Source: Polytrichum commune (taxonomy: Eukaryota; Streptophyta; Polytrichopsida; Polytrichales; Polytrichaceae). From it: a stretch of 64,000 nucleotides of DNA. Numbering within the stretch: position 1 is the stretch's first letter; the number at the start of each line of letters is the position of its first letter. The stretch is taken from positions 19,579,501 through 19,643,500 of the forward strand of contig OX485805.1 in NCBI GenBank assembly GCA_950295325.1, given 5' to 3'. A program made the translations under genes and the position numbers. Of this stretch, positions 1 to 59,982 are shown in pieces. The notes below the pieces were generated by a model, which saw only the letters and a list, made by a program, of their open reading frames with translations, was not told the DNA's origin and did no database searches.

Positions 1-1
1 A

Positions 2-3123: not shown

Positions 3124-3151
3124 AAAGTCTCAATTTAACGAATATAGTGTT
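3124..3151 (-). repeat. Terminal inverted repeat, right end of copy 1
   Basis: The 28 bp ending ATATAGTGTT are the exact reverse complement of the 28 bp at 44607-44634 and match 59951-59978. The sequences beyond it in copies 1, 2 and 3 all differ, which fixes the outer boundary after GTGTT. Confidence 0.85.
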
Positions 3152-38240: not shown

Positions 38241-40402
38241 GGTAAGATGGCATGCACAATATTTGCTAGGTATTTGTTTTCCCCGACAACAACAAACATC
38301 AAATTTGCAGCACAATTTGTCTTTTGCCCATGGGTGTGCAGGTGCTTTTGCGGTTCAATACACAATTTTGGTTGTTGCAGCAAGAAGGGCATGAGTGTTT
38401 GGGAAGTCCAGAGCCATAAAGCACAAGGAAATAAGCAACCAATGTGAATTAGGAAACCAAATGGTTCAAGTGACAAACGTGTTTTTTCCATTGGTGCCCA
38501 TTATGTTCAAGGAAGAAAGGCATGGCCTTGCAAACTTGGACAAGGTTGCAGTGCCTCATGCACCACGGGATTTGTGGTTGAAGTGGGAGTCAAACTATTT
38601 GATCGAGAAGCCCCAATTGTATTGATTCACTGAGCGCACTATGCAATGACCAAGCATATTGTATTCTCTGATGGACGAAAATTAGGATAGTATGGCCATA
38701 GTTGTCTCGAACTGTGGCAATAGGCATGGGAAGAGATTAGTTTCTGTTGTGTACGGTGATGGGGGTCTCGTAATGCTGGCAGACGTTGCAATGGTATTGT
38801 CCTCTCCACATGCACAGTGATGCTTGTGGGCACCATTAGTATTGCTACAACACCATCCTCATTTACCCTAACATGGAAACTGCCGGAAAGTGAGGTGTGG
38901 TTGTGGCACGTGATCGGACATGACCTACATTGTGTACATTGCAACATTTTTAATTGGGAAGAAAATTTGGAACTGTTAACCGTATTTTGTGCATGTCTTT
39001 TGATGATTGGAATGGTTGAATGAACCCAAAAATTGTGTGCACAACATGTTATATATATGAATGCAACCGTAGCAGTGGTAGCAATGATGGTTGTGCGCAT
39101 TTGCCTTATATGCGCAGTCGTTGTGGATGCAATCGCACATGAGGTACACATATTTTCTGCATATCGCGGCATTTGGAACTATGAAGGGCATTTACAACTA
39201 TGAACTGCATGTTCTGCATGTATTTTGTTGACCAAAATGGTTGATTGAACAAAAAAAAATGTGTGCACAATTTGTCTCATATACTCGTGTGAACGCAGCA
39301 ATGGTTGTAGTTAAGTTTGTGTGCATCTGCCGCATATGTGCAATTGCCGTGTACGCGCATTTCCTGTGTTTGCTCATGTGCTTTGTATGCAAATTTTGGG
39401 CGAACTGTTGAAATGCACACGCGAAAGTTTTGTTGTTATTGACCTTTAGTATGTATGTACGACATGGTGGAACATAATGAGTCTATGATACAAATTTTTG
39501 GTCAGGATGTATGACTTTTTGAATTTTGATGAAATTTGTGCTCCAAATGGAAGTTAGAATGCCGAATGAATAGGAAAGTAGGAAATCAATGACTAATTAG
39601 TAGAAGTGAGTAAGAAGTGAATTATTTTCACTCACGTAAACTAAATATTAGGATGAGATAGTCGAATGGGCAGGGCCATAGACATGTGATCAAAATGAAA
39701 AGACTCAGAAGATCGAGATACGGGCAGACTTATTGGCGAGAGAGACTTGTCTGATTGATAAGGACCATAGGCAAGGAGAGAGTGTGTGCAAAGTCTCTCA
39801 ATCTCCTCTCGGAAAGAGAGTGACTTTCCTGGCCGCAGCAACAATCGAGGTCTTTGCAGAAGTAGTAAAATCTTGGGTGTGAAGCCATGTATTGTAAAAA
39901 ACATTCTCTTCATAATATAAAAGTGTGATGCGTCTTTCTCCCTTATCTCCTTGAGTAATCTACTATGTTGATTGCAAAGTTCTTGGCGATAACAGTCAAT
40001 CAGATAGAATTCTGAGGGCGTAATGTATATGATCCATTAAAGGTCTAACCTAGAGAAAAGCAAAGACCATGCACATTGCTCATGAAGAATAAAGCTTCTT
40101 TACCTTACTAGTTCTTATTTGGGATAAAAAGGTGTGAAACCCGGTAATCCGTACACGTCAGAGAAGACAACATTGGAGTTAAGCATACTCATTCATCCTG
40201 GTTGGTGAGGGAGTGAATTTGTATGGGATTGACTATTTGGTGTAATCCTCTACTAACACAATATTCATTAAAATGAGAGTTTTCCAGTGAATTGAGAGTA
40301 CATAAAGCAAACTATTAATCCAAGAATGAAATGAAAACCACTAGAAAGTTGTAGAGTACAAGTAAAAAAATAACATTTGATTTTCCGCCGTAAATTTTGC
40401 CG
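38241..40402. other. Gene-free DNA with a diverged tandem duplication
   Basis: Blocks beginning AATGGTTG at 39011 and 39236 (225-bp period) share TGTGTGCACAA, a TGTGCGCATTTGCC-like core and several GCATATG words. Nothing else supported. A 5S-like patch near 40130-40210 was considered and rejected. Confidence 0.5.
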
Positions 40403-40404
40403 TA

Positions 40405-40928
40405 GTTTCCATTAAAATGAGAGTATGTTAAGTTGGGAAATCGACTCATTTAGGTTGACTCAACCTAAATTGACTAACATATTGTCCTCATTTAGGTCGA
40501 CTCAACCTAAATTGACTAACATAATTATCCTCATTTAGGTCGACTCAACTTAAATTGACAACATAATGTCCTCATTTAGGTCAACTCAACCTAAATTGAC
40601 TAACATAATTATCCTCGTTTAGGTCGACTCAACCTAAATTGACAACATAATGTCCTCATTTAGGTCGACTCAACCTAAATTAACAAAATATTATTCTCAT
40701 TTAGGTTGACTCAACCTAAATTGACAACATAATGTCCTCATTTAGGTCGACTCAACCTAAATTGACAAAATATTGTCCTCATTTAGGTCGACTCAACCTA
40801 AATTGACAACATAATGTCCTCATTTAGGTCGACTCAACCTAAATTGACAAAATATTGTCCTCATTTAGGTCGACTCAACCTAAATGAGTCGATTTCCCAG
40901 CTTAACATACTCTCATTTTAATGGAAAC
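40405..40928. mobile_element. Inverted-repeat element filled with a palindromic minisatellite
   Basis: The outer ~45 bp (GTTTCCATTAAAATGAGAGT onward) are inverted almost perfectly at the two ends, with TA on each side (40403-40404, 40929-40930). The interior is about eleven tandem 40-44-bp units, each carrying TTTAGGTYGACTCAACCTAA, itself a palindrome. A partial copy of the end sequence occurs nearby at about 40264-40285. TA flanks suggest a Tc1/mariner-type derivative. Confidence 0.7.
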
Positions 40929-40930
40929 TA

Positions 40931-43213
40931 CATGTCTGAAGCATAATCTAGTATTTATCAACCTAACATGACTTTTAGGTGTCCAAATGGCCAATATTAT
41001 TTTGAGAGGATCCCACTCTCTCAAAATATTGAATATCGTGTTTACTGATAATTCCCCATTCGTTTAAGTGAATCCGGCTAACATGTGACAAGATTAGCCT
41101 TGCATGTGATTCCCAAGTGTGGTTACTTTGTCACAACGGCAATATAGATGACGTTGAAAGAAGAAGTGTAATTAGGACAACCTCAAAATGTAATATTTCC
41201 CATGAGTACACGGAGTTGAGTGACCAATCATATGTTTCTTCTCAACTTAATAAGATCAAACTTTGTTTGTTAAGATTTCCTTTTGTTAATCTCCTAGTGA
41301 TTGGGCAGTAGATAACTAGGGAATCTGTAAGTGAAATGTTCTTATTGAGAAAAAACTACAACTTTTATCTATGCGCAAAAGAGTGGTGAGTGCAAAAATG
41401 TTCTATACGAGGAACTCTTCTTCAAAGTGAGAATTAGATGTGAACATCGTGAGTGTGTATCGTGGTACCAAAAAGATCTTTACAATGTCCCTTCTGAAAT
41501 TGTGGGCTTCACCCCAGAGTCTAATGTGGTGACCATAAGCTCAGGAACGACGAGAAGGCGGGGAAGTCGAAGAGCTTGGTCGTGGAAGGTGAATTGCGGA
41601 GAGGAAGGGAGGTGCCATTGTCCCATAACGTTTGGCGGAAGGCTCGAGAGCCAATATAAAGAGAGTAAGGGCCAAGTACATCTTTGAGAACTTGACGCTT
41701 ATTGATGATTGTTACTAAGACTATGGCCCACTCTATGAGACTTAATACTTGGAATTGGTTATTGAGACTATGGCCAACACTCACTAGACTATGGACTTGG
41801 GGATTTAGACTCGATTGCTTAGTTACGGTACGCTTAGTTCTGGTCCTTAGCTCTCGCCACTTGTAATTAGACTTTTTCAAATTATAACAACTCATTTTTA
41901 AAGTATTAAATGAAACATTGGTTTCTTAATTTAGAAGAAATGAAAAGAGATGGAATATAAAATTACCAGCTCTGATAAATTAATTCAAAGGTCTGAGGAG
42001 TATAATGGGGTGATATTGGGCGTGGGTGCTAACTTGTGGTATGACCTATAGTCACTGGATACCTAAGGAAGAGACTATGGACTAAAACAAGGTGCCTTGG
42101 CCTTGGGTGTATGAGACTATTGCTCACTCAAAAGACTATGGTTGAGCCATGACTCTTTGTATTATAAAACCATAATAAGAGGGATAATACTGTCAAGCAT
42201 GAGTTGTAAGGGAGTGATTGAGTAATTGCATGTACTGCACTGAGCGACCTTGAATGCCTAAACCCAAATCTAAGAGGACTCAAAACTCACCTAAGAAGAT
42301 GTCTAGCTACCTTGGGGTTGTCATACTAATTTCATTTCATAACTCGTGTAATTTATCAATCAACCTAATAGTGACCCCTAGATGTAAAAGTCTGACACTC
42401 ATTTGGTTTTCCTTGTGTGGTTTTCTTAATCGGAACCCAAACCCAAAAACTATTTACAAAGTTTGTTTATGGGACATCATGATGTATGACCCTACGGTGC
42501 ACCAAGCACTCAACCGCGGCCGTGTTGTCCCAGATCCAAAATCTTGTATGTATTTCCTAAATACACATATTCACAAGAATGTGTAACCCATCAGACGTTA
42601 CGTTTGTGGTCCTTTACAACTGGTCACCACCAACCTCGCGTTCACCTTGTTCCACTGTGGTGCTATGGCTAAAAATGCGCAAAAATTGGCTCATTTCCTT
42701 GGTGGCATTGTCGCAACCCTTGTTAATTCCCCTTAATCATCTTAATCATTTTTATTTCTGTCAAGGGTCATGAGCGCTAACCCTTCGCATTCTGCTATGC
42801 TAATGATTAGCTCCTCCTACCCCGGACCTTATAATTCATAAGAGGGAAGCAACCCTCCTACTTTGCTTTCGGGACTCACATCTTAATCGGTAGCCAATTC
42901 TTAGATGTAGACTTCCACCCATGGAAGTCCAATCTTATGTTGATCATCGCATTGCCGGAGCAACATTACAACAACCCAAACCATACTAGGCAACTATGCC
43001 CTCACATTGGGCCAAAGCCCATGTAGGTTGTGCCATTCGGCCTTGGGTGGGTGAGGCCACACCACCTCACCCATATAAGCCTCTAGGACTTTTGGTAGGG
43101 CCCCTACCCCACCGTCAAGAAACCTTTTGTCTCTCTTCCAAGAGTTGGGGCCAAGTAGACATTTTCCCTTAGCCGCTGAGCCTAAAAGCCCCCAACAGCT
43201 TCAGACCATCATA
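40931..43213. other. Gene-free DNA
   Basis: Short open frames (for example 41427-41687 and 42254-42586) lack any recognisable domain. No terminal repeats found. Confidence 0.45.
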
Positions 43214-44000: not shown

Positions 44001-44606
44001 GGAAAAAACAAATCGATAAAGATAACCCGAAAGATGTCGGCATGTGATTGGTGCACTTGCCACTTGGAAACAATAGTATCTTACTATCTTCGTTCATTTC
44101 TGCTTTTTCTATTATAATTACCAATTTGCCAGCCTGCCACTGCCCCATTTTGTATGTTTGTCCACAGACTAGTTTAGAGAAACTGAACTAGACTCAGTCA
44201 CTCAAACTCAACCGGTTCATTTGAAACTAACTCGAATTCAAGAAGTTGGAGAGTGCCGCTGAAACAATCTCCTCCTGCAATCTTGAACTTCAACAGGTGT
44301 TTTCTCAAACTCAACCGGTTCATTTGACGACTGCAATCAAGTTATCTCTCACCGGTCTCTCAGTTGCTTTAGTTTTCAGTTGCATATGTTCGATTCATTA
44401 GCATCCTAAATCTTGAGAGTCTTATTCCTCTCTTTTTAAACTTTTTAACATGTTTATATATACTAATTCTTATTCAATTACTAAGTTTACCTTCAATTGT
44501 AATCTTTGACATTATGTTAAAAAGGTTCTAAATTTTGTAGTTGATGAATTAATGTATGCAGGTGAATCAAACACTTCAAGATTGATAGTTTGATTGGGTA
44601 TTAGTA

Positions 44607-44634
44607 ACACTATATTCGTTAAATTGAGACTTTT
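44607..44634 (+). repeat. Terminal inverted repeat, left end of copy 2
   Basis: Exact reverse complement of 59951-59978. A three-mismatch version marks the end of copy 3 at 62134-62161. Confidence 0.9.
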
Positions 44635-44764
44635 TGGGCATTTTGAGACATTCACATAAATAAGGACAAGGATAAATGGAACACATATTGGAGAAAGTTG
44701 TAAGATGCGAACACTTTGAAGCGGGTGTTTAGACCAAGAACCCCATTAATATCTCATATTCGTG

Positions 44765-45005
44765 ATTGTTTAGGGTGAGCAATCCAAACCTTAGGCCACG
44801 TTGAATGGGAAATCTTAAAACATTCATATTATCACACACAAAATATGAGAGCTTGTATGAATATGGTTTAGGCAGGGCAATCCAAACCATAGATCATATT
44901 GAAAGGGAGATATGTCAAGCAATATAATATAACATACAAAATATTCCAAACTCATATTTGTGATGGTTTAGGTAGGGCAATGCAAACCTTAGACCATATT
45001 GAAGG
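44765..45005 (+). repeat. Subterminal repeats of the transposon
   Basis: Three ~100-bp units carry TTTAGG(N)nGGGCAATCCAAACC-like cores at about 44768, 44866 and 44969, each followed by a CATATTGAA.GGGA block. A related word in opposite orientation, GTTTGGAGTGCTCTACCC, lies near the right end (about 59766; partial second copy about 59810). Paired subterminal repeats are typical transposase binding sites in large plant DNA transposons. Confidence 0.6.
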
Positions 45006-45152
45006 GGAAATCATGTGACAATTATATTATTGCAAAAAAAACATACAAAGTATGGCATGTAAAATGCATAGCATGCTAACACCACACATCCATTGGATAG
45101 TGCGACCCAAAATCATATTGCCTATGGCCCAAAACCCTACGCCTACTATGGC

Positions 45153-45458
45153 CTATCTAGCCTCGGAGATTGCCTCTTTTTCTTTTGCTTTTTTCTTTTC
45201 TTTTGCCTCTTTTTCTTTTGCTGCGGCTTCCTTTGCTTGCATTGCTTCAACATTCCTGAAAATCTCCGCCCTGCGACTATAGCCATTCTTGGGGTGACCG
45301 CCATCAATAACACATTTTGGATTCCGTCGGCCGCCCGAATTATACAACGAAGAATTCGAATACGATGAAGTGGACTATCTTGCATTTCTGGTCATGGAGT
45401 AGAAACGCTCCAACTCGACGGACGTACTAGCCCGCATAGGTTTACGGGTGGGAGCAAC
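45153..45458 (-). pseudogene. Cargo exon 6: C-terminal Lys/Glu-rich tail
   Basis: The acceptor GACGCGTTGCAG opens VAPTRKPMRAS. The frame has TAG at 45375-45377, then continues to a Lys/Glu/Ala-rich helix (EAAAKEKEAKEKKKAKEKEA) and ends at TAG 45153-45155. It lies 0.5 kb from the left terminal repeat. Confidence 0.5.
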
Positions 45459-45591
45459 CTGCAACGCGTCAATGCAAGAACACACGTGTTAGTTTAGGGA
45501 GGAAGACCCAAACGTGTCACACGTTCATTTTTTAAGTGCGGGATGATTGTAATGCGCGGTTAACCAGGTTTTGGGGGGGGGGGGGGTTCAC

Positions 45592-45945
45592 CTTGTCACC
45601 GGGGGCGTTCCCGTCGGAGTTGGCGAGGAGGGGCAATGCGTCCCGCAAAGGAATAGGAAGGGTGCCACTCTTCGTTGGCCGAGCGTCCATCCGCAGCCGC
45701 CGTTGAGGTGTAATACTGCCGCCGGGCCGAGAGGGGGACGTCCGGACGCATTTGCGATTTATGCCCTTGAGCGGCGACGGGGACGGAGAATGCCGGAAGA
45801 TTTGCTTGGGTGGGGGGCTATCGACGACGCCGGCGTCAAGAGGCTCCTTGGAGTAGTCGATGGTGGACGCGGCATCGTAGACGGTCTCGTAGAAGAAGCT
45901 CCCCAAGTTTGATTCGCTGACGATCTCAATCGAGGGCTCCAAACG
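45592..45945 (-). pseudogene. Cargo exon 5: Ser/Pro-rich region
   Basis: The acceptor TTTTTTGCGCCAG precedes RLEPSIEIVSESNLGSFFYE. It is 118 codons with a Ser/Pro-rich middle (RHSPSPSPLKG) and a donor GTGAAC after Gly-Asp-Lys. No domain recognised. Confidence 0.5.
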
Positions 45946-46043
45946 CTGGCGCAAAAAAGGAAACAAAACAAAACCCAAAGGGAGGGGGGGAGGGGGGAGC
46001 ATGTGAAAATCGATATACAATTGAGGCATAATATATCACACAC

Positions 46044-46875
46044 AATGGCACACCATGTAGTATCTCAAATGAGTTTATTATATTTCGCGTGAGCGTACAA
46101 CTCTCTGTACATATAGTCCTTCGGATCCATGTATCTTTCGCCTATCGGATTACAACTAAGGAACCGGGGCACGGGTAGTCCGCTCCCCACGAGCGTTTGA
46201 ATGTACTTAAGTAGGTCTAACAAAAAGCGGTCTCGGACCTTTTCGACCGTCCACGTAGGGCAAACTATGAAGTTGGAGGTCGGGTTCAAAATGTTTTTGG
46301 AAGCGTTGTCATCCACCATCAACGTGTTGTCACGGGTGGGGCGAACGTCGTAGGGACAGCCAACCATAGTTGGACGCTGGTCCCATACAACTGGCTTCAA
46401 GACCTTAAGAAACTGGTTTACGGCGGGGTTGTTGGGCTTCTTCACAACCCTGCCCTCGGGGGTGTATAATGTTTTACAAGAATCTTCTCCTAGGACCAAG
46501 CACGGGGGTTGGAGTCCCTTGAAGATGAACTCCACGACGGCCTGGGTGTTCTCGGACTTCATGGAGCTCCAAACGATCACCCACCATTTGGATAGGGCGA
46601 CCTCAGGAAGCGCCGAAGCCACGGGCGGAGGTACACTAGCTTGCTTTGATGTACGCGGGGGGTCCATCGTAGTTCCCGTCCTCGGGCTTGCAGAAAGGCA
46701 CCGTGGGGACCCTGGGACAGTGCACGCACTGGACGAGGACCCCGTTGAGGTCTAGCACCAGGAACCGTGTCTTGGGCGGCGGAGACGGGGAGGGCAAAAT
46801 CGGGGGGACCACCACGCTGTCCTCCACGCTCCTCGGGGAGGACCGGTGGGGAGCCACGACGCTATGCTCCGATCC
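46044..46875 (-). pseudogene. Cargo exon 4: FCP1/NLI-type HAD phosphatase-like domain
   Basis: RFLVLDLNGVLV is HAD motif I in the plant FCP1-like variant, with Asn at the second position. KWWVIVWSSMKSENTQ supplies the WSS motif II. NTLMVDDNASKNILNP supplies the DD motif IV, and IVCPTW follows, as in CTD-phosphatase-like domains that remove phosphate from Ser/Thr. The two halves lie in frames offset by one base; the shift falls near a six-base C run at 46657-46662. TGA at 46065-46067 comes near the end, before a weak donor (GTGTGT) at 46043. This may be a captured host gene fragment, since plants carry many such phosphatases. Confidence 0.65.
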
Positions 46876-47348
46876 CTGCGGCGACGAGCGAGAGAAGGCG
46901 GCGAGGACTATGTTATGCTATGTCCATCTCAAGCAGAACGGAAATTTTGTGCAAACACAAGAAGAATTGGACCATTGGTGGCAGCAAAAACATACAAGGG
47001 GAACAACATACATTGGGACACGGATGCAAACATATGGGCGCCAAAAATAATAATTTTATTGTTACAAATCTCTATGTACAATTTTATGGGGGGGGGGGGG
47101 GGGCGCGGTGAACGAGGGCATTCACACTATCCTAATTGTACATCTACAAAATTGGTTGCGCGCCGCCAAGGTTGAGCGTAGTCGAGTGAGGCGAGACGAG
47201 GGGGATCGCGGGGGGAGCACGTTGTTGGGTGCGGCGGGGGGGGGGGGTGTAGTTCCTCATAGCTAGGGGAGACATGACCACGCCAACAAGACAATGACCA
47301 AGGAAGTTTGGGTCGGTCGACCCAAACTGGGAGGGCTCAGTGTGTTAC
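46876..47348 (-). other. Cargo intron 3 with one palindrome and a G tract
   Basis: The intron is 473 nt, GTAACA..CGTCGCCGCAG, joining Gln-Gly-Glu to Gly-Ser-Glu in phase 0. It carries the palindrome at 47306-47327 and G runs at 47088-47103 and 47236-47247. Confidence 0.55.
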
Positions 47349-48833
47349 CTCGCCCTGGTCATGTCTCGACGATGTGGATGCCTCCACCGTCCCCGGTGCC
47401 CCACCTCTCTCGCCACCGCCTTCTCCGCCTACGTCAGGGACCTTGTCCTGCAAAGGTTGAGCATCAGGCCCTTGTCCTAAACCAATCTCCGCATATGCAT
47501 CATGCATGGGTTCATCGATTTGGTTAGGAATAGAGGTATCACCAGGCCCTTGGAGGCCTTCAACATCTAACATGGTTGTGTCTCTTTGAGACACAAGTTT
47601 GTCAAGGGAGGACTGAGCTGCTTTGGGGTTTGGGTCGCCCGACCCAAACTGTCCTGCATCGGGGGAGGCGCCTTGGGGCACTACAGTCGAGGGTGGGTCT
47701 GGGTCGGTCGACCCAAACATCCTGGGATCGTCCGCCTGGTGAGGGGGCGCCATCACTATGGGGGGCCGTAGTGGTGGAGGGCCCAACGGGGAGGAGGCTC
47801 CAGATACGCGCCAGATGTTGGGATCGTCCACTTGTTGGACCGGCGCGTACGGAACATGGGGCGGCCGCATCATGTGCTGGAAGCTGAATGACCCTTGCGA
47901 CACTGGGTGCTGAGGGATGCTCTGCGCTGGGAAACCGGGGGGCAAGTGCGGAAACGAGCTGGACAGAGCCACCACCAATCATTGCGCCCACATCCCTTGT
48001 ATGACTTGCGATATCAAGTCGGCGCTGGATGGAGGTTGGGCCATCGCCCTTAGTCTTTCTTGTTCCAAGAGGAGAGCCCTCAGCTCTGCGACCTCGTTCC
48101 GCACGGAGGGTTCTTCCGCGGCAGCCCTCTGCAGGCGGGCGCGCTGCTCCTCGTCTCTACGCATCTTCTCGTTGGCTTCCTCCACAGTGAGGACCTCGGG
48201 TTTCACCCTAACCATGCCTGCGAACGCTGTCGGGGAGGGGGGATCCGATCTGAGCTGTTTGGCGAGCTCAATGTCGTCGTCGTCCTCGCTGCTAATGGCA
48301 ATGGTCTCCTCCAATGCGTAATCGCCATAGAGCTTCTTTCCCTTTAACTTCCTCCTCTCCCGGAACGTGGCAATCGCGTCCCTGGAGTACATGTCCCTCG
48401 CATCGTCCACCGTAAGGACGGGCATCATCTTACTCTGCGGGGTTGCCACACGCATAGCCTTCTTCCTCTGAGGGACTTCAGATTCTTGCGTGAATCCCGT
48501 TGCCCCTTCCTCCACATCCCCTTCCTTTTCCTCCTCTCCGTGTTCTTCTTCCTCCTCCTCCTCTTCCAGCTCTCCACCTCCTGTACGGGACGGATTGCCC
48601 GGATGCAACCCGACTAGAGGTTCGGGTAATTGGGTTGTTGCCCTCATCGCAATTTCTTCCGGGTTGATCCGCCTCGCCCTATCAAGAGGGTTCTCACCCC
48701 CCTCAACAACCTCGTCCACGTAGCTTCCCGGGATCCAGTCGAGGATATCCATCTTCTTTGCCAGCGATTTCTGCGTCCTGTAAAATTGCAGATCACCATC
48801 CTCTATGTACGAGTAGATGTTCAACCCCAACAT
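47349..48833 (-). pseudogene. Cargo exon 3: end of methyltransferase-like fold, acidic, coiled-coil and Pro-rich linkers
   Basis: It opens with the continuation of the methyltransferase-like motif (MLGLNIYSYIEDGDLQFYRT). Next come an acidic run of eight Glu in a row, a basic patch, a predicted coiled coil (EANEKMRRDEEQRARLQRAA) and a proline/glutamine-rich tail. TGA at 47979-47981 lies at the coiled-coil/Pro-rich border. Two palindromes lie inside this exon and are translated in frame as FGSTDPDP and FGSGDPNPK-like peptides (47697-47718, 47628-47649). The donor GTAACA at 47348 gives phase 0. Confidence 0.55.
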
Positions 48834-48986
48834 CTACACAATCCAAGTTATATAGAAATTAGAATTTGCAAGACAAAAAACAAGACCAAAAACAATATCT
48901 AGTTTGGGTCGACCGACCCAAACCAAGAAAGAGCCTGGTTTGGTCGAACGACCAAAGCTGCGCAAGAGCTAAAGAATATAACTTAC
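48834..48986 (-). other. Cargo intron 2 with two palindromes
   Basis: The intron is 153 nt, donor GTAAGT, acceptor GATTGTGTAG, phase 0. It splits the methyltransferase-like motif between Met and Met-Leu-Gly. It carries palindromes at 48902-48923 and 48938-48957. Confidence 0.75.
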
Positions 48987-50318
48987 CATGGCAACATAGA
49001 CGGGTTTCGAGCCCCCGAACACGTTGAAGATACAGTCCCCTCTCCTAGTCAGGGTCCTCAGCATCCGCATGTAGAATTCCATCCGCAGCTCATCTGCAGG
49101 ATAGTTTGCGTATTTGGCCTCGTCGTATAGGCATTTGCTGGCACCTAACCCATCTGGAACTTGGAAGAGCTTGTCCATCCGGGACATAGGGTGGTTCGGC
49201 ACCTTCAACAACTCCGCTTTGTACACGAAGTACAAACACAAGACGTTGACGACCTTGGTCTTCTTGTCCTTCAACGACGTGTAGGCCCCCTCCGCCGGTG
49301 CGGCGATGTAGTGAGACTTGGAGACTGCATACTCCGGCTGCAATTTCCGGACAAGGTCGTACACCTGCTCCGCCCTCCTATTCTCGACTATCCATAGCCA
49401 GATATCAATCTCCTTGAACTTAGGACTCGCATAATCGACGAACTTAGATAGGAAGGGGTCGTAAAACAGTGTGCTCATCGTACCCTCAAATGAGCTTCCA
49501 GGAATGTTCATGAAATCTATCATTCCGAATGGAAAACGCCCCCCTGCTTTCGTCCTTATGGCCATTCTGGCGTCCTGACCTGGCCAGCCCTGAATTTTCA
49601 AAGGCTCGAAGGTGACAAGGTTGAAGTAAGCGTCCCCTTCAAACTGGACAATTTTCTTCTCCTTGATGAAGTTCGAGAATGCACGCGCTGTGTGATCCGG
49701 AAGCGCCCGGTTCTTCCCACCCTTCACCATCTTGGCCCGCAAGAAGTCGTCCCCCGCTTCCCTTATTAGAGCCGCCATGGAGGCACTGGTGAACTTATAT
49801 TCAGCTTTGAATGCTCTCCAGTTAGCCTCATGAACCTCGCCGTCCACGACAATATTCCTCTCCGGCACCAATTTATGCAGCTTCTGCACTATAGTTGTCT
49901 TCTTTTTCCTATTCTCCGTCCATTCCTTCATGGTGTAGCATGAAGGGACGAAGGATTTGGGCTTTAAGAAGACAATCTTCGGGTACACCTAGCACCTTTT
50001 CGCCGTGGGCGTGAAATGCAGGATGTGCGCCGCCGCCTTCTCCATCTCCGTCTCGGAAAAGCCTTGAAGAATTCTAAAGAACTCTCTCACGAGAGGCTTC
50101 ATTTGTTTGAAGCGCGTGGTTTGGTTGAAGAAAATTCCTGTGTCCGGGTCGATGAGCTCACCCGTCTCATGCTTCTCAAATACACTCTTCCACTTCATCC
50201 AAACGGAGTCGGATGCTGTGATTAAATAAATCTCCCCTCTAAGCTCGTTGTATTTCTTCTGTTTGTGACTAGCATTATCAATGGAGGAGAATTTATTTAT
50301 CATTTGGTATTTGAAGTC
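48987..50318 (-). pseudogene. Cargo exon 2: DNA methyltransferase-like domain, first part
   Basis: After the ParB-like region the exon encodes about 440 residues. The end, RRGDCIFNVFGGSKPVYVAM, continues in exon 3 as MLGLNIYSYIEDGD. This reproduces the C-terminal nucleotide-binding motif of N6_N4-type (DPPY) methyltransferases (..gD.VlD.F.GSG...A...G....gIE.d). ParB followed by an N6_N4 methyltransferase is a known bacterial and phage arrangement. No clear DPPY catalytic motif is visible (the closest is a YDPF), so the domain may be inactive or repurposed. TAG at 49989-49991 interrupts it. Confidence 0.5.
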
Positions 50319-50531
50319 CTGCATGTGATCAAAACAATCATTTGAATGCATGTTAGATATGAACATGTGATTTCCAAAACATATCATGACCAGTATCTGC
50401 ACCAAGAGTTTGGGTCGATCGACCCAAACTAAAAAAAACATGACTGCAACAAGACTTTGGGTCGAGCGACCCAAAGTACACAAATAAAGCTGCAAAAGGA
50501 GTTTGGGTCGTTCGACCCAAACAATACTCAC
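50319..50531 (-). other. Cargo intron 1 with three palindromes
   Basis: The intron is 213 nt, GTGAGT..ACATGCAG. Its length is a multiple of three and it lacks stops, so it looks like coding sequence, but splicing it joins KNPKWE to DFKYQ. It carries palindromes at 50408-50429, 50455-50476 and 50501-50522. Confidence 0.65.
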
Positions 50532-51857
50532 CTCCCACTTGGGATTCTTGTCCTTTGCATTCTCCCTCTCCTTGAGAGGCCTACCATAGAACTCCCACAC
50601 CTCCCGCGAGGCCATGATATTCCTTATCCAGGAAGCTTGGTAGGCCCTTTTCTTATTCCCCATGTTAAAGTAACGGGAGATGTCGCTCAGTCGGGTCTCA
50701 TCGTCAGACCACGCCACTAGTGCCTTCCACACCTTCAACTTCACCTTCTGATGGTTGGGATCGTCCCACTCAGTCATCAGTTGGATTTTCTTGGAAGCCT
50801 CAACGCTGTGTTGGCCGTCTATGAGCCAAAAATCGCCTTTCTGAATTGTCGCCCACATTTCAGGGGTAGGCATTTTCTTCAGTCCCTGGGGCATCACTAC
50901 AATGGTTTGTCTGTCGTCTTTGAATTATTTGCTAACGATCTGCGCGATTATCCAATCGACGTAGGCGTCTTCTTTTGCCCGGACACATTTTTCTGGTGGC
51001 GCGAGATGACACTGACTGATGTTCACGTCGAATTTGAAATCCCTGCCCATGAAAAAGAAATGGGAGCACTTGGTCGTGAAATTGTTCACGATTTTTTGGA
51101 TCTCCCCTGCATCCACTTCCTGCCTTGGCTTCGGCATGCGCAATTCGGGAGAGACTGGCTCGTCAGTCATCACAGATGACTCTCTCGCCCTCTTGGAGGG
51201 AGTTGTTTGGCGGCTGCCAGAAGGCGTAGGAGTCTCGCTAACCGCCGGTGTCTCCGATGGAGTGGTTCATCTTGAGCTAGCCGGGACTGGTTGCGGCATC
51301 CTCACCGATTGAGGCCTTGACGACCCTGCACCTTCCTCAGTGGGTACCTTCCGCCTGACGGGTTGCTGAGACTTCGTTTTGCTCTGCAGGGCTTTGTTGA
51401 GCACGCTGATTGCATGCTTTAGTTTCGTAAACCGGCTCAAGACCTTTGTGTTCGATGTACTGGCATCGATGAAAATTGTCTCGGGTTTGATTACGTCAGG
51501 TTCGACACATGACTCCTTTGCATATGTAGCGTCAAATGGTTCGACGAACTGGTGCAGAAACATATGAGCATTCTGCACAGCGCTGTTCTCAAGGATGACG
51601 TCTGCGTAGTCTCCAAAAGACTGGACCGACGCCACCTCCCATCCCGTAAGAGTCGCCCAGGTATGTTTTTCCACGGTCCCTACTTTGACAACGAATATCA
51701 TTTTGTAAAGGGAGGTTTTTACTACTTGAATTGACCAGGCGAGGACAAGCCCGTCCTTAGGGACATATGAGTCATCCTGAGGGGTTTCGTGCTCCTGCCA
51801 TAACACGTCTGGCGCAAGCATGAACCACCTTTCTCCTGGTCTTTTCTTTGGGGCCAT
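50532..51857 (-). pseudogene. Cargo exon 1: N-terminal region and ParB/Srx-like motif
   Basis: The ATG at 51857-51855 follows a splice acceptor (CTTTCTTTGCAG), giving start MAPKKRPGERW. Residues 1-150 are an unrecognised globular region; about 150-240 is Ser/Pro/Thr-rich linker. From about residue 270 the pattern VDWIIAQIVSK, then TIVVMPQGL, then KGDFWLIDGQHSVEASKKIQ matches ParB/sulfiredoxin-fold proteins, where DGQHR-type motifs line the active site. The family usually has Arg after the His; here it is Ser, so activity is doubtful. Two in-frame stops (51267-51269, 50925-50927) break the exon. The donor GTGAGT follows Lys-Trp-Glu codons at 50532. Confidence 0.55.
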
Positions 51858-53170
51858 CTGCAAAGAAAGAAGCAAGGATGTTAGTTTCGGTCGTTCGACC
51901 CAAACTTCTTCAGAATAGATTAGATGTCACGTGATGGAAGGGAAATATAATGCATCAACGCATTTATTTTTGGATTGTGTCTTGTTATTTTAGAACTTCA
52001 TTTATATGTTTATATGGTATTTCGTTATCTTGGGTGGATTTGCGTTTTATATTGTCATCAAGGATTTCTTGATAAGTTTATATTGTAGAGGTTGCGTTTG
52101 GGTCGACCGACCCAAACAGCAGGCTGTGGTTTGGGTCGAGCGACCCAAACTATAGGCTGTGTTTGGGTCGTCTCCCCAAACTGTTCTATTTTAATATAGT
52201 TTTTTGAACTTGGCATGTAGCATATACAGTGCTTATGCGTTGTGTATGCTACAACAACATGAATTAACAAACACATGTTTGATTTAATAACATAGAATAC
52301 CTTTCAGGGTTGTTGTTTCAGCAGGGATGGAGTGGATCTGGTGTTCTTCTTCCAATAACACACAAACTACAGAATGCAACTCACACACACTCTGAAATTT
52401 CCAAGCATCTACTAAATATTTCAAATAGTTCTTTAGTCTCTCAACACAGATCAAAAGCCTGTGTCTTTCAACAAGCTTTTGAATCTCTCAAACAACAACT
52501 GAAACTCTCAAAACAAGAACTGAATCTCTCAAAAAACAAGTGATCCTTTCAAATGACTTTTCGATCTCTCAAACACCTCCTCATTATCTTTGAAGAACTC
52601 CTAAAGCTCACAAGCACTCCAGAAACATAATAACTCCAAAACCCGCAAAAAATTACACATGTGATACAAATCTACAATCACATGCACTTCGAAACACAAA
52701 CTATAGCTCTCACAGAATGTTCTAAAACACTTCACGACTCCTCTCCGAACTCCCTTCACCTTCACGCCCTGAAACCCTCCTCCGTAGGTTTCTGTTCTAT
52801 TCTAAACTCCTCCTAACTTCTAAGATTGCAGAAGTTCTATTGTGAATAGAGCAAGAGAAAGTAGGGAAATAGACGAAGTAGAGAGAAAGAGAAAGCAGGG
52901 AAATAGCTAAAGAGAGCCTGAATCACCTCGGCGCTTCGTGAAAGCGGCGCTTCAAAAGAGGCGGCGCTTCCAAACGAGGCGCGGAGCGAGTGCTTGGCGA
53001 GGAGAGAGAGAGAAAGAATGAAAAAAAATGACGGTTGGGGTTTTGTTTGCCTCGGGAATTGGCGCCCAACCGCACGAATAGGGTGCCCACAAGATTAGGG
53101 CACCAACGGAAATAGGGTTACGCGGGACCCAAAATCCTAAAGCCTAACTCAAACCCCTTAGCGGGGATTA
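51858..53170 (-). promoter_or_regulatory. 5' region of the cargo gene with a probable leader intron
   Basis: A likely 5' UTR intron spans about 51858-52302 (donor GTATTC after CTGAAAG, acceptor TTTCTTTGCAG before the ATG). It carries four palindromes (51884-51905, 52096-52117, 52129-52150 and a damaged one at 52161-52181). Upstream is a CTCTCAAA-rich tract and GCGCTTC repeats (about 52925-52980). No TATA box or start site can be fixed by eye. Confidence 0.4.
52491..52545. repeat. Short tandem repeat of ~22 bp
   Basis: Three imperfect units of CTCTCAAA.ACAA.AACTGAA lie in the leader of the cargo gene. Confidence 0.7.
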
Positions 53171-53650
53171 ATTTTTTAACGACACTTTGGAGTACCCTAA
53201 GGTTCCACATCAACTGCAATAATCTACAAAACTAACCATTTATATAACTAATGGATTTTAACAACGCAACTTTATGCTAAAACTAAGACTCAACCCCTAC
53301 TTACATGACACCATAACCTTAATTTTCCAAACAAGTTGAAATCATTGGTTTATCTTTTGTTTGAGCACATTAGGAAAATAATACAATTGCGTGACATTGA
53401 ACGATGTAATCATTGACGTTTAGACTTTACCAATGATGCCAACAACTCACATAATATTCCATGAATAAAAAAGATAACCCCCACCCCCCAACATGAAATT
53501 CCGAAATTTAGAAGACTTGAATGTGGAGCCTAAATGAATACCTTCCCAAAGTGCATTTTGTCAGGGTTTTGAATTGCATGATCCTTATTTCAACATGCTA
53601 ACATGCTCAAGTTTTTAGTAAATCCCATAGATATTCACTATGATGCATGA

Positions 53651-54430
53651 CATAGTCGCCAATAAACCGTGGATCATGATATATTTACTTGGGATGTGAT
53701 ATAAAAGTAAATTGGAGAAGCACAACATCGTATGAAGCCATGAAATCAATCATGTTCTTATTCAATGTTCCCTCCACGTATATTAGATAATGGCGCAAGA
53801 TAAAGTAGATGTTGTTTGTATATGGAGGCAATACTGAACAACTAGGAGATTTGGTGTTTAGGGTTTAGGGTTTAGGAGTTAGGGTTATAACATATTAATC
53901 TATCCAATATTAACGTATAACATTGTCTTAATGGTGAGAAGAGTCTTATAGGAAGGTTATAGTAAAGACAATCTTGATTATGTTAATATGTTATTTGGGA
54001 CGTTTAAACGTGATATACTGATTGGTCTTGTGTTTAGGAAAAAAAACATTTTATGTTGTGGATGTTATTAGGGTTAAGGGGCCGGACTTTGGATATTTGT
54101 CTCACTTTGATGAATCACATAGTCGCCAATATACATGGTATTTAATATATGGAATGTAATATAAGACTAAATCGGATAAATACAACATCAAATTCATGTT
54201 GTTATTCAATGTTCCCTCCGCATATATTAGATAATGGCGCAAGATGTAGTAGATGTTGTTTGTATATGAAGAAGAGTCTAATAGGAAGGTTACAGTAACT
54301 GCAATGTTATTTGGGATGTTTAAACATGATATTATACTAAATATTGGTCTTGTGTTTATTCAATACAGATTTCATGTTGTGGATGTCATAAGGGGTTAGG
54401 GTACAACTTTGGATGTTTTCCTCACACACA
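53651..54430. repeat. Diverged tandem duplication, ~445-bp period
   Basis: TTCAATGTTCCCTCC and TATTAGATAATGGCGCAAGAT occur at about 53761 and 54205. Both copies run through AGGAAGGTTA.AGTAA, TTATTTGGGA.GTTTAAAC, GGTCTTGTGTTTA and TGTTGTGGATGT. Further shuffled copies of nearby words lie at 54520-55270. Confidence 0.8.
53857..53877 (+). repeat. Interstitial plant telomere repeat
   Basis: Three TTTAGGG units inside the transposon's central spacer. Confidence 0.9.
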
Positions 54431-55758
54431 TTAGTAAACTTGAAGTGAACTTGAGGATGGATTCAAATATCATTGAAAGACTGAACTAAAAAGCAACATT
54501 GGTGGTTTGTATCCCCTTAACAACGTCCGCATATGTTCGTCATTGCCACACTTGCATGCGAGAGATAGAGCAATGTTGTATGCAATCATTACAAATGACA
54601 TAACATGTTCTTTAAAAGTTTTTGTCACTGGCATTGCTGCAAATTGAGATTTGGAACAATAAATCAACTTTGTCATGACATCATTTGTTTTCAATATTAA
54701 TAATTCCTCATGCGAGGATCTTAATAACTACACTTTAACTATTGTAGTTTTTGTGACTCTTACCATAAGGCGTTACACAATGTTTAGACTTCATTTGTCT
54801 ACATATTGGTTAAAATATACCGTAATGTTTGAGTTCAAATATAGAAATATAATGATTTAATATGTATATGATGCATTAGAGTGATATTGTAGAAGTCTTT
54901 ATTCTAAATCACTTATCACAAACATTTTCCCTCATGACACTTGAAAAACATTATGTGGCCGCCACCCTTTTCCCAATGGTGCATGTCATATCCGTCATTG
55001 CCACAATTGCATGCGAGAGAATAGAGCAATGTTTTAGGGTTTAGGGTTTAGGGTTTAGGGGAGACAAATAAATAATTTTATTCATCATGACAATGGCCTC
55101 AAGCCTTCGAAACTCTCTCATAATTGCAGCCTCCAAATGGCCCTAACCCCACCTAAATAGGTTTACACATGAAAACATTGACTGGAGTTGTGTTTTGGTC
55201 TACATATTGGTTAAAGTATACCGTCATGACACTTGAAAAAGTCAATGTGGCCGCCACTGTTCCTCCCAATGGCGTGTGTCATATCCACCCAAAACAAAAT
55301 AAATAGATTAAATATCATAGACTAAGTCATATGACGGCTGGGGTATCAGAGGGGCATTGATAGATGCGCATTTTCTACTATAAACAGAAAACGGGGAATT
55401 ATGTCAGGAGGTTTGAAATAACCTCTGCAGGAGAACAAGGCGGGAAAGGCATCCAATGAGGAAGTCGGAGAAACGGAGGTGGATAGTATAAAGGGACGCA
55501 CCCTCCAAAAGTCTGTCCTTTTTTGCTCTTCTCCCACTCTTGAATTCGTTGAGAGAACTCTTAGTCGGAGCTATACTTCAAGGTTCGTGCATGCTGCCGT
55601 TCATTAGCACTTATCCACAGCATGCAAGTTCATGAGCACCTATCCACAGCATGGAAGCCCACCGGGAACTTTGCAATGATCTCAAAATCATATGGGATTT
55701 CGGATTATCCACCGCATTATCCGCCGGATTTTGCGGGTTCTAGTGTGACTTTTATAAG
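54431..55758. other. Central spacer without genes
   Basis: It holds repeated words shared between 54790-55010 and 55198-55290 (TCTACATATTGGTTAAA, CATGACACTTGAAAAA, ATGTGGCCGCCAC), so a second layer of duplication is present. No coding region seen. Confidence 0.5.
55033..55060 (+). repeat. Interstitial plant telomere repeat
   Basis: Four TTTAGGG units, adjoining a copy of the CATGCGAGAGA..AGAGCAATGTT word also found at about 54554. Confidence 0.9.
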
Positions 55759-56200
55759 GTTTGGGTCGGCCGACCCAAACCCCTCCGCTAGTGTGGGCGG
55801 GTTTCAGCGTGACCCTGATCAGGTCTGGGTCGGTCAACCCAAACCCCAACCCCAGCTTGGGCGGCTGGAGGTTGACCATGAGAAGGTTTGGGTCGGTCGA
55901 CCCAAACCCCTGGACCAGTGTGGGCGGACTTGAGCAAAACCCCTCGACCCCTTGACATAGAATGTTTGGGTCGACCGACCCAAACCCCAACCCCAGCTTG
56001 GGCGGCTGGAGGTTGACCATGAGAAGGTTTGGATCGGTCGACCCAAACCCCTGGACCAGTGTGGGCGGGCTTGAGCAAAACCCCTCGACCCCTTGACATA
56101 GAATGTTTGGGTTGACCGACCCAAACCCCAACCCCTGCTTGGGCGGCTGGAGGTTGACCATGAGAAGGTTTGGGTCGGTCGACCCAAACCCCCTCCCAAA
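55759..56200. repeat. 141-bp tandem array containing seven palindromes
   Basis: Units start at 55823, 55964 and 56105 (period exactly 141 bp). Each has a palindrome, CCCCAACCCCAGCTTGGGCGG, TGGAGGTTGACCATGAGAAG, a second palindrome, then TGGACCAGTGTGGGCGG. It lies just upstream of the transposase gene. Confidence 0.9.
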
Positions 56201-56378
56201 ATTGTTTTTGGAACTCGCGCAAAGTATTGGGAGTTCACATTGTAGTTGTGTTGCAAATGTCTTTATCGTCGGTGTCCCCATTTATCACGATGTCTTGCAT
56301 TTTTTGATATTTGATTCTTTTGAACCCTTACATGGTGTGCATGTTTGTTGAGGTTTCATGTGCATGTGTGTAGGCGAA

Positions 56379-59300
56379 ATGGAGGGAGTTGGTGGAAGAG
56401 GGGATGCCTTCTCTAAAGACATGGGCAACTCCCATTCTTCTTCTGGGGATGACCTAGACATTGTCGGGGAGGATAGTTTTGGTGACAATGCAGATGAAGG
56501 TCATTTGGGGAGTCCTTCGCCATCTGCCCCTTCTTGCCCCACTGTGGAATGTGCTGGGCTTTCACGAGCTTCATGGGTGAATTTGGATGTGGTACTTGTT
56601 AATGACAATGGAGTTGCTGTGGCGGAGGGTATTTGTCGTAACACACATCCATAAGATTGCATTGATGAAAACCCTCTTGGCACCGACGACGTTGGAGTTG
56701 TTATATTGGAATCACTCGTACATTCCGAAGTGAATCCAACTCATAGGTTCTCGTTGCGAAGGTGGCCGTTGAGGAATGTGACAATTGATGGGGTTAATTT
56801 GCATGAGCATGAGCGACGACACATCCAAATCCAACAGGAGCTCCAAGCAAACATTCGGCCACGCAAAGGCCTACGGAAGTACGATACATTGGCACGTCCT
56901 ACTCCGTCTGCAAATGAGTGTAAACGTCAAAGGTTGCTATGTGAGGAGTCTATTAGAGAAGTTGCCACAAAGGATTGTTGTGTACATCGTTGTTGCCAAT
57001 TGTTCCCAAGGGATAAATTGAAGGCCATCCGCGAGAAAATGTGGCTTGGAGATTTCCGTCTAAGATCCACCAAAAAACTTGATGTCCATAGGGCGATACA
57101 TGTGAACGGAGCGGGTCGCAAGGTCATCACCCTTGAGAGCATAGACGTGTGTTGTACGGCATGGTACACCATTCACGGTGTGTCGAAAGCGGAATTTTAT
57201 AGACAAGCCGCGTATGCCAAGGAAGGACACAGGTCCCGTCACCATGGGAATACGGGCTTAAAGAAACCAAGGGAAGCAACGAGACAAGCAACAGCCACTC
57301 TGGCAACCATCATTGTCCCCCTTGCCGATGCAATGCCGCACAAAACACGCACACTCTCAACCGGTGAAAAGGTTGTGGAGAAGGTTCTTCCTATAGGCAC
57401 GAAATGGAAAGACATATTGTTGGACGTAAACGCAGTTGGCGAGAAGGCCGGGTTGGACCCTATTTCGTTGTCGAAACTAAGTGCTATAAAAAAATCGAAC
57501 TTTAGCGAATACATTACAAAAAGACGAGGCGACAAATTTGCCCGTTGTTCCAAATGCGAGAAGTTGAAACGCCTTCGAGATGCACACACGATGGGGACAG
57601 AGTCCTATGCCGCACATCAAATGAACTATTTCAAGCATGTGAACATGCAAGAGGCACACCGTAATGATTACTACACAAATAGAGCTTTGTCCATCTCCAG
57701 GCCTTTAGAGGTCCTTACAATCATCCATGACAAAATGGACCATGCCAAAACAGCCTCACCATGTTTTGCAAATCGAATCAAAGCCACGGACGGCCTTTTT
57801 AAGCTTCCTGTTTCGGTTACAGGTGATTTGGATAACAATTGCATTGCGTTACCTCAACACAAATTTGTGTTTTTCGGTTTGTACTTGGGGCCATAGATGT
57901 ACACCATATGAATTTTTTGGTGTTATAGTTGAATATTAAACCATTGGGTTGGCTTTGCAGGAATGATTGCACATGGACATGGCGATGTCAAGTATGCTCA
58001 TTATGCTCTTGATTTGTATCCGGCGGATTCAAACCACACGATAGGGTCATTTGCAAAGTTTTTACGTGATTTGGAGAAACCGCCGTCCTATTCATCAAGA
58101 TTGTTATTTGAAAACTCCGGATCAACACCTCTATATGAAGCGGTCTTGGATGGAAGAGATGTATGCGTGCACTCCTTGCCGGAGCCACCAAGTGAAGATG
58201 TGATTGCCAAGAATTTGCCCCCAACTCTGCGTGTCCAATTGGACAATTGTGCGAAGGACAATAAAAGTAGATATGTTTTTGCATATTGGTCGTTGTTGGT
58301 TGCGAAAGGCATTTTCAAGGAGGTTTTTGTGTCCTTTCTATTGGTAGGCCACACGCAAGACGATATCGATGCATCTTTTGGGCGGTGGAGCATGAAGTTG
58401 CGCGAGGAGGATTTTCCAACAATCCCATTGTTGATGAAGTCGTACATGGATTTGGAGAACATTCCCGTCATCCCCCATATGATCGAGGAGGTTCCCGACT
58501 TCAAGGCATTTATAAAACCGTATATTCGAAGCGGAGCTCACCGATTGATCGGACATACGAAGGCACAACAATTTCGGTTCTACGTGCGTGACGATGGTGT
58601 CCCTGCCATGCAATACAAGTTGTTGTGCACGTCACAAGACTGGAGCCCGCCGGAGGGTTTCCTTGTATGGCGTGTTGATGGGGAGGGAAGGACGATGTTG
58701 CCTGACGGAGAGCCTAAGCCTTGCAAACCAATACCCATGAAGAATTTGGAGGACATTTGTAAAGGCATATCAGGCTTCATACAATATTGGAAGAGTTTGA
58801 GGGTAGCGGATGTTGGTGGATCGTGTTGGCTTCGTTACGGAAGTTGGATACAATATTGGACACGTGTTCGTGGCGCTTTGGCAAACCTTCATGAAGATAC
58901 ACCCCTTACTTTAAGGCATGGGTTTTGGCCACAAACACGTGTCAATGTACAAGCTTCGGAGGCTAGTCTTTTGGGAAATGGAGAGGTTCGAGAGGAGTTT
59001 GATGTGGACGACCATTACGTGGGGCCTGCTAGTAGTCGTCCCCCACCATCTTTCCGCATTGCAGTGGATTGTCATGAAGGTTATATGCTCATTTTGCGTC
59101 CTGGAGACGAGACATATGCAAAGCCAGTGTGGGTGGCAAGAGCTTTGTCCAAACCCAATTTTGTAACTTCCAGCCCTCATTTTCGACAAATACAAGTGGA
59201 GTACTACCGACCGACGGCAAGGAATGAAGATGTGATTCGGCATTATACAGGCTGGGATACAAACCCTAACTTTCGGTGGAAGGTGGATTCTGAGCACGGT

Positions 59301-59447
59301 CCATCTTGGGTAGATACAAATTCCATATTCATAGCATGGAAACCACGGAAAAATCATAGTGGATCAGTGTCCATCCCTCAAAAGTACATAACTTTTGCAA
59401 AAGACAACCTTGCTCGGATCGCAAAAGAAGCAACCCACGTTGAATGA
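56379..59447 (+). CDS. DUF7869-type DDE transposase-like protein, copy 2
   Basis: Exon 1 runs from a probable ATG at 56379 (after a possible acceptor TGTGTAG) to 57876; an 84-bp intron (57877-57960) joins in phase 1 to an exon ending with TGA at 59445-59447. A TAA at 56652-56654 breaks exon 1, but sequence on both sides reads as one protein and one T-to-C change removes it. Translation may alternatively start downstream. Motifs in order are an acidic Ser/Pro-rich leader, CCVHRCC, ARCSKCEKL, HDKMDHAKT, QLDNC and VGHTQDDIDASFG. Copy 1 and the family pattern I recall have His where this copy has Gln in the last motif. By eye the 494-residue second exon differs from copy 1 at about 14 positions. 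Its promoter region faces the cargo gene across the palindrome array. Confidence 0.75.
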
Positions 59448-59950
59448 AAAGTTGGTAGGATTGTGTTAGCATGATTATAGGAGCAACTGTAATTCGACGA
59501 ATATATATTACTCATATGTGTGCTCCTCAAACTTGGGGCAAAGTTTGGGTAGAACTTGCGAATGCTATATTGTTTGGAGTTGGTTGAATATCCATTTACT
59601 ATATTTCAATACAATTGTGAAGTTCATTTTTTTATTAAGTTTGGGACTAAATTTTCCATTGAAGAAATATGCATTTATTACATGCACTTTGTATGTTGCA
59701 ATGTCTATATTTTATTGACCATGTTAATAATAGAAATCATTTTATATGTTTTTTGGGTGAAACTAGTTTGGAGTGCTCTACCCAAAGTGTTTTTGTTGAT
59801 GAAGTTGGTGTTGAGTGCTCTACCATATGTGCTTATGTCCACACATAATAGATTTGGGATATTAGAACATATAATATATTTGAGATTGTTCTCAATATAG
59901 TTTCGGAACACGGAATGTTGTTTGATCCATATATTAATTTGAGATTAGAG

Positions 59951-59978
59951 AAAGTCTCAATTTAACGAATATAGTGTT
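59951..59978 (-). repeat. Terminal inverted repeat, right end of copy 2
   Basis: 28 bp ending ATATAGTGTT, exact inverse of 44607-44634, followed directly by TAGT. Confidence 0.9.
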
Positions 59979-59982
59979 TAGT

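Follow-up and report, generated by a model that had tools for sequence, protein, structure and literature searches.

Which function is served by a strict 22-bp palindrome that recurs throughout one transposon of the moss Polytrichum commune? The window analysed here is a stretch of 64,000 nucleotides (GenBank assembly GCA_950295325.1, contig OX485805.1; C3:19579501-19643500 in our numbering), and the searches covered a genome of 408 Mb in 64 contigs. The window contains a DNA transposon, assigned here to family 1, which carries a leftward gene A and a rightward gene B. Palindromes of the form GTTTGGGTCG-NN-CGACCCAAAC occur 17 times at up to three mismatches in a scan of the whole window, all within 47306-56189, while 100 dinucleotide shuffles of the window gave none at the same threshold. 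Two derivatives, one at 48939 (TTTGGTCG-AA-CGACCAAA) and one at 52161, in which one arm is perfect and its partner degenerate, bring the total to 19, in agreement with the nineteen copies reported for this interval by a sequence-only reading of the same DNA. Judged from the sequence, the palindrome is a real, strongly conserved, high-copy site of a regulatory type, and its interpretation as a dimer binding site on double-stranded DNA is well supported.

Sixteen of the 19 sites are intronic: two are in intron A and three in intron B of gene A, four in the 5'-untranslated region (UTR) intron of gene A and seven in the leader intron of gene B. The placement in introns A and B is backed by the spliced frame of gene A. 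The two leader introns are predicted from splice-like sites beside the start codons and from a donor-like GT after the TATA box, which by eye is common to family 1 and family 2 elements. The remaining sites, described earlier as lying in one exon, are two in the last coding exon and one in the 3' UTR. The seven copies at 55759-56189, which had been taken for a divergent promoter array, lie 3' of the likely TATA box in the predicted leader intron of the rightward gene, and the stretch between the two leaders (about 52.3-55.7 kb) has no palindrome site at up to three mismatches.

Conservation was compared among 21 gene A copies, which are the window and 20 homologous stretches (fetched loci are cited by L numbers) picked from 119 scored matches to span the range of identity. 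Subfamily 1 comprises the window and L001-L014, and subfamily 2 comprises L015-L020. At four single-copy sites, in the exon, the 3' UTR and the leader, the arms diverge between subfamilies by a mean of 0.4, 0.4, 1.6 and 2.0%, and the left/right flanks of the same sites by 23/5.5, 17/17, 16/9.8 and 21/53%. These values come from 13 of the 15 subfamily 1 copies and from 5, 5, 4 and 6 of the six subfamily 2 copies, respectively; the copies left out have no site or stretch there (L006, L014 and L018 at the exon and 3'-UTR sites, where 18 of the 21 stretches align, L016 at the third site, and L002 and L014 at the leader site). The coding-exon site at 47628 is conserved like the others, with 0.4% divergence in its arms and 17% in its flanks. 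The leader site at 51884 has an altered fifth base in its left arm in all 19 copies compared. In the fetched loci, 406 unique contexts, which are 38-mers with up to four mismatches and hence selected by similarity, include 242 perfect sites. Arm changes in these contexts are single-sided in 200 cases, complementary on both sides in 6 and non-complementary on both sides in 8. It was ruled out that one arm alone is kept intact, as sites with two mismatches split their changes between the arms in 24 of 35 unique contexts. C-to-T and G-to-A at the CpG rank with the most frequent arm changes, which would fit methylated DNA.

The geometry of the palindrome is invariant, and its centre follows a rule. 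In the fetched loci, some of which overlap, 794 of 794 pairs of facing perfect arms are separated by 2 bp when gaps of 0-12 bp are considered. Perfect palindromes number 9231 in the genome, as copies that are related to one another, and none was found with a reversed-pattern control. Their centres are purine-pyrimidine in 5475 (59.3%), two purines or two pyrimidines in 3718 (40.3%, by subtraction) and pyrimidine-purine in 38 (0.4%), so the centre is not free, as had been proposed. If the two central bases were independent, about 5%, or nearly 500, pyrimidine-purine centres would be expected given the purine-pyrimidine share. All 38 are CA/TG, with no TA and no CG; they sit in 35 loci, all of them fetched, and most are in one array type with 38/73-bp spacing. 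By a grouping made by eye, they look like mostly one inherited change, with only a handful of independent origins. Stated for half-sites, at least one GTTTGGGTCG is followed by a purine in 9193 of the 9231 perfect copies. This rule is symmetric between the strands and thus suits a protein that acts on double-stranded DNA. At one intron site one subfamily has the centre AC, where the other has GT or AT. Changes of the centre from CC to GG and from AC to GT were considered as proof of palindrome inversion and are not claimed as such, because AC could become GT via AT and the subfamilies recombine.

The palindrome was traced to mobile elements at nearly all places of the genome that were sampled. 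The first 100 places listed, all on contig C1, form seven clusters assigned to two element families: three to family 1 (near 616k, 1180k and 2115k) and four to family 2 (438k, 475-478k, 2154-2160k and 462k, the last by eye from its leader). Each of 35 further loci on seven contigs has 4-19 palindromes inside 1.2 kb, and 33 of them match family 1 or family 2 references with the palindromes masked; L052 and L067 show the array only, and L082 was searched as well and stands outside these 35 loci. No clear palindrome site outside elements was found in this sample of seven clusters and 35 loci, so the motif does not appear there at equal frequency in unrelated unique DNA. The confinement to the transposon described earlier holds within the window; genome-wide, the unrelated family 2 carries the palindrome too. 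The hAT superfamily was considered as a third bearer and is not supported as such. Locus L044 joins a promoter and array of family 1 type to a hAT open reading frame (ORF; Pfam DUF659 and Dimer_Tnp_hAT), and of three further loci with this array type two run on into gene B exons and L054 has only a partial match to exon 1. The hAT sequence of L044/L101 is likelier an insertion nested behind exon 1 of a gene B of family 1 type.

Arrays gain and lose units, and the sites in exon and 3' UTR stay single. All 21 gene A copies have 1-5 palindromes in intron A, in units of 35-36 bp, and 3-7 in intron B, in units mostly of 45-50 bp (counted with up to six mismatches), and the number in the gene A leader array varies among copies in the same way. 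Promoter arrays have 7-19 sites in all 13 elements (up to five mismatches), with spacers that differ between parts of an array. The exon and 3'-UTR sites are kept in all aligning stretches except for the third site, which is missing from L016. As units of about 32, 33, 36, 38/73, 46, 56 and 63-79 bp have different spacers, the copies do not derive from one tandem expansion, an origin that the earlier reading had named as contrary to its proposal. By eye, L013 lost one intron B site through a small deletion, and some leader arrays, those of L003 and L004 among them, have an inverted spacer between two palindromes. Telomere-like TTTAGGG repeats stand by these inverted spacers and also occur in the promoter array of L029 and, in the window, in intergenic DNA at about 53858-53880 and 55033-55060; they are perhaps filler DNA at repaired breaks. 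The derivative TTTGGTCG-AA-CGACCAAA was rejected as a second widespread motif, since it has only three copies, in the window and its nearest relatives L001 and L002. L014 has a version of the 48939 site with one arm changed, and the window has both arms changed. This single case hints at hairpin-templated correction, in which one arm would be matched to the other.

In family 2 (L041, L042) the leftward gene shows cysteines in a SWIM-like pattern, and there is also a rightward gene. Membership in the Mutator-like elements (MULEs) would be tentative, the SWIM match having an E-value of 0.076 in Pfam, under its cut-off. Comparison of family 2 with family 1 proteins by tblastx and tblastn revealed no similarity beyond the palindromes. 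A subclade of this family appears to have gained the palindrome twice. With identities measured to the rightward-gene exon of L042, the leader array is present in all four fetched copies of at least 85% identity (L090, L091, L094, L095), and absent from all three copies at 75-81% (L087, L092, L093) and from L088 and L089 (52-56%). Along with the leader arrays came a new TATA box, a leader and a donor-like site, all placed in front of the older promoter; over 131 bp this cassette shares 72.5% identity with the promoter and leader of one family 1 subfamily (E 2e-13). The other family 2 gene has an array too, within an intron, in L041, L099 and L100, and also in L023 and L027, the latter being part of the same element as L041. 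L097, which is 80% identical in the rightward gene and 88-96% identical to L041 in the leftward-gene exons, has neither array. All three copies with the leader array that could be examined also carry the intron array, and the only examinable copy without the leader array has neither; L096 and L098 have no exon match and were left out of this comparison. On either side of the intron array stands one copy of a 118-bp duplication, the two being 92-93% identical; L097 has this stretch only once. A long duplication that flanks an array would fit filler DNA at a staggered break. The gain of the same site at two places by one lineage would be hard to explain without selection for the site.

Other lineages carry palindromes of their own. 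Family 3 (L083-L085) is related to family 2 through the rightward gene, at about 40% identity, and has the palindromes GGTTTCGG-GA-CCGAAACC and GGGTTCGG-GA-CCGAACCC upstream of the matching exon and also after it; they are perfect in L083 and L084, and L085 has only a repeated half. The family 3 motif has 267 copies in the genome, versus one for its control, and it occurs with a TA centre, so the centre rule described above belongs to GTTTGGGTCG. The leader DNA of family 3 is a dense mosaic of repeats. Family 4 (L086) has three copies of GTGTCTCGG-TC-CCGAGACAC in the matching place. Within the window, a gene-free 788-bp element with terminal inverted repeats (TIRs) of family 1 type carries a related palindrome, TTTAGGTYGACTCAACCTAAA, 11 times in tandem, close variants included, and the TTTAGGTYGACTCAACCTAAA pattern has 661+665 matches on the two strands of the genome. 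Family 2 also has a promoter palindrome of its own, of type CAGACCCTGTGCGTTAACGCACAGGGTCTG, in L024, L028, L087, L092 and L093, which include older copies without the borrowed cassette.

In the explanation that we favour, each palindrome would be a double-stranded site for a homodimeric, sequence-specific DNA-binding protein, with two identical 10-bp half-sites and a 2-bp gap. This protein would be made by the element lineage, with gene A as the leading candidate. It may bind the non-coding parts of its own transcription units and keep the chromatin of the element open, as VANC proteins of Arabidopsis VANDAL transposons do, and family 2, whose acquired arrays include one that came with a promoter and leader cassette, could draw on that protein in trans. 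The dimer site, which was among the alternatives of the sequence-only reading, draws its support from arms far better conserved than flanks (in the coding exon as well), from the invariant gap and from the strand-symmetric centre rule. From the lineage-specific palindromes and the missing clear sites outside elements in a limited sample, we infer that the binder is element-encoded, and the parallel with the VANC motifs suggests the anti-silencing role. Taken as a whole, from homodimer site to use in trans, we consider this explanation evenly balanced between right and wrong. What surprises most about the palindrome itself is the centre rule and that an unrelated transposon gained it twice.

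Several observations weigh against this explanation. Pfam recognizes no family in the first 946 residues of gene A at E-values up to 10, and single-sequence folds are unusable (mean pLDDT, predicted local distance difference test, of 37 and 32). Both family 1 and family 2 have a DGxH motif, but the profile comparison for a shared protein gave a probability of only 0.6% (E 0.09). Copies of the palindrome are related, so that neither the centre counts nor the 9231 perfect sites are independent trials or events. L016 looks mosaic by eye, which implies that the subfamilies recombine, and this could lower the apparent divergence locally. The intron gain of family 2 rests on a single empty copy, L097. 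Finally, families 2 and 3, about 40% identical, have different palindromes and the unrelated families 1 and 2 have the same one, which means that having the family 2-type gene does not by itself predict the palindrome.

A variant of the favoured explanation is a shared address code, in which a dimeric reader comes from one lineage, an unrelated transposon captured arrays, one of them together with a promoter, to exploit it, and the reader may be ParB-like, loading at parS-like palindromes and spreading to exclude silencing; we regard this as possible and doubtful. ParB binds palindromic parS sites, and the likeness to this system lies in the palindromic sites and, by eye, in a DGxH motif in the proteins of both families. 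Bearing on a ParB-type fold are the 0.6% of the hhalign profile comparison, no PDB match better than E 0.33 and single-sequence models of low pLDDT. A reading of gene A and the family 2 gene as ParB plus methyltransferase is kept as a lead; it is a motif likeness seen by eye, with no support from Pfam, PDB, profile comparison or folds. An unlikely source of the reader is the host, if the site were one for a host transcription factor that unrelated transposons evolved or borrowed for tissue-particular expression. The site and a promoter segment are indeed common to two unrelated families and many sites are near gene 5' ends, but no clear site was seen outside elements in the sample (seven clusters and 35 loci, two of them array only), related lineages carry quite different palindromes, which better suits element-specific proteins, and sites are also present in late introns, a coding exon and the 3' UTR.

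The palindrome might instead serve transposition itself, as a site for the transposase or an accessory protein like TNPA of En/Spm, and the 11 related palindromes kept by the gene-free 788-bp element, with their many genomic matches, agree with this. We hold it to be rather improbable, as in a 15.4-kb element no site comes closer to the two ends than 2.7 and 3.8 kb, the sites are concentrated in introns, and the family 2 gains are in a leader and an intron. Both remaining alternatives of the sequence-only reading fared poorly. A pre-mRNA hairpin that affects splicing, stability or small RNAs would account for the intronic position of 16 of 19 sites (partly in predicted introns), each of which is able to form a hairpin; the excess of single-sided over paired arm changes, the variation of both centre and spacer orientation between copies and the equal conservation of coding-exon copies make it very improbable. 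A self-spreading miniature mobile palindrome or array, for which the same core amid unrelated spacers and in two families and the intron array between the 118-bp duplication could be cited, has the slightest chance: no solitary insertion with a short target duplication was seen, positions are fixed among aligning gene A copies with the exception of the one site in L016, expansion proceeds by larger tandem units, and the family 2 gains came as whole arrays.

Known systems offer parallels to the favoured element-encoded reader. VANDAL elements are MULEs without clear TIRs, and the VANC protein corresponds to DUF1985 in Pfam. En/Spm, a CACTA element, has subterminal TNPA sites, TIRs that begin with CACTA and 3-bp target-site duplications (TSDs). 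Family 1 resembles it in having repeated, element-specific candidate binding sites in a DNA transposon, and differs in its TIR, AACACTATATTCG, in its TSDs, TAGT and TCAT, and in sites that are internal and mostly intronic. Passages of PMC5735166 describe VANC21 motifs that are repeated in tandem within introns and in intergenic and terminal non-coding DNA, with gain and loss, and state that VANC6 uses another motif than VANC21, a motif also found in the unrelated element AT9TSD1; VANC target motifs of VANDAL transposons are treated in PMC10398659 as well. The moss palindrome shares with them a dense, short, tandem motif in non-coding parts of a multi-copy DNA transposon, the turnover of copy number, the use of different motifs by different families and a motif common with an unrelated element. 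However, the VANC21 motif has 9 bp in one orientation and the moss motif is a 22-bp palindrome with a 2-bp centre, three of its sites are fixed in exon and 3' UTR, family 1 differs from VANDAL elements in its 28-bp TIRs, 4-bp TSD and DUF7869 gene, gene A lacks a Pfam match, and family 2 received a promoter and leader along with the sites. The moss system, known from sequence alone, would thus work like VANC/VANDAL without being a member, as element, ends and protein differ. Literature searches on palindromes in moss transposons, subterminal repeats, Polytrichum genomes and anti-silencing motifs outside VANDALs gave by title no paper that describes the motif among those listed, and text searches with two arm strings gave none evidently relevant by title among the matches listed.

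If this explanation is true, sequence-specific anti-silencing or self-activation would not be peculiar to Arabidopsis VANDALs and would extend to DNA transposons of another kind, where the code is palindromic and open to capture by unrelated elements. Filled and empty copies side by side in a single genome would also offer a natural experiment on how selfish DNA co-evolves in its cis sites and trans factors. For the binding protein, the rule that at least one half-site is GTTTGGGTCG plus a purine makes a precise and testable prediction.

Table 1. Positions in the window of the family 1 transposon, its genes and palindromes, and of the gene-free element.
Feature	Position	Strand	Description
Whole transposon, family 1	44606..59978		15.4 kb; perfect 28-bp TIRs AACACTATATTCG...; 4-bp target duplication TAGT
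Left TIR	44606..44633	+	28 bp, perfect
Right TIR	59951..59978	-	28 bp, perfect
Gene A	47337..51857	-	Three coding exons: 51857-50532, 50318-48987, 48833-47337
Gene B	56379..59447	+	DUF7869 domain, E 4.6e-40
Palindrome, centre GT	47306..47327		3' UTR of gene A
Palindrome, centre CC (GG in other copies)	47628..47649		Coding exon 3; encodes FGSxDPN
Palindrome, one mismatch, centre GT	47697..47718		Coding exon 3
Intron A (48834-48986) sites	48902..48956		Palindrome 48902-48923 (AC) and symmetric derivative 48939-48956 (TTTGGTCG-AA-CGACCAAA)
Intron B (50319-50531) array	50408..50522		50408 (AT), 50455 (AG, symmetric outer change), 50501 (TT)
Gene A 5'-UTR intron sites	51884..52182		51884, 52096 (AC), 52129 (AG), degenerate 52161; units of about 33 bp; putative splice sites
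Gene B leader array	55759..56189		Seven palindromes, spacing 63-78 bp, between likely TATA box (55487) and start codon (56379)
Gene-free, non-autonomous element	40255..41042		788 bp; TIR of family 1 type (AACACAATATTC...); TSD TACT

The spliced frame of gene A is intact in four of the 11 copies that were spliced, with 1384 amino acids in L001, L009 and L013 and 1388 in L007, and the window copy has four in-frame stops. Exon 3 alone gave no Pfam match at 0.01. Gene B is probably the transposase; it has 85 genome matches at 96-100% amino-acid identity among those scored out of 1868 candidates, and no paper was found in a literature search on DUF7869. A frame at 46065-46751 on the minus strand, inside the transposon, matches NIF (NLI-interacting factor-like phosphatase; E 1.3e-5) and is possibly a captured or third gene.

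Further copies bear on the ends of family 1. Positions 1-3152 of the window belong to a second copy, whose right end they form, with 96.8% identity to 56828-59979, and the homology with the window element stops at 59979, at the same end. Another copy, cut as L080/L081, has the TSD TCAT, and the left end of a third copy was not located in L078. A related DUF7869 element in opposite orientation and with a near-identical terminal repeat occupies 62134-64000 and L021; its next 10 kb have no gene A match and no GTTTGGGTCG palindrome, and pogo-like ORFs were seen there by eye. Near the left end of the transposon, at 44765-45044, there are three subterminal repeats, 98-100 bp apart, with a degenerate GGTTTAGG...CCAAACC dyad.

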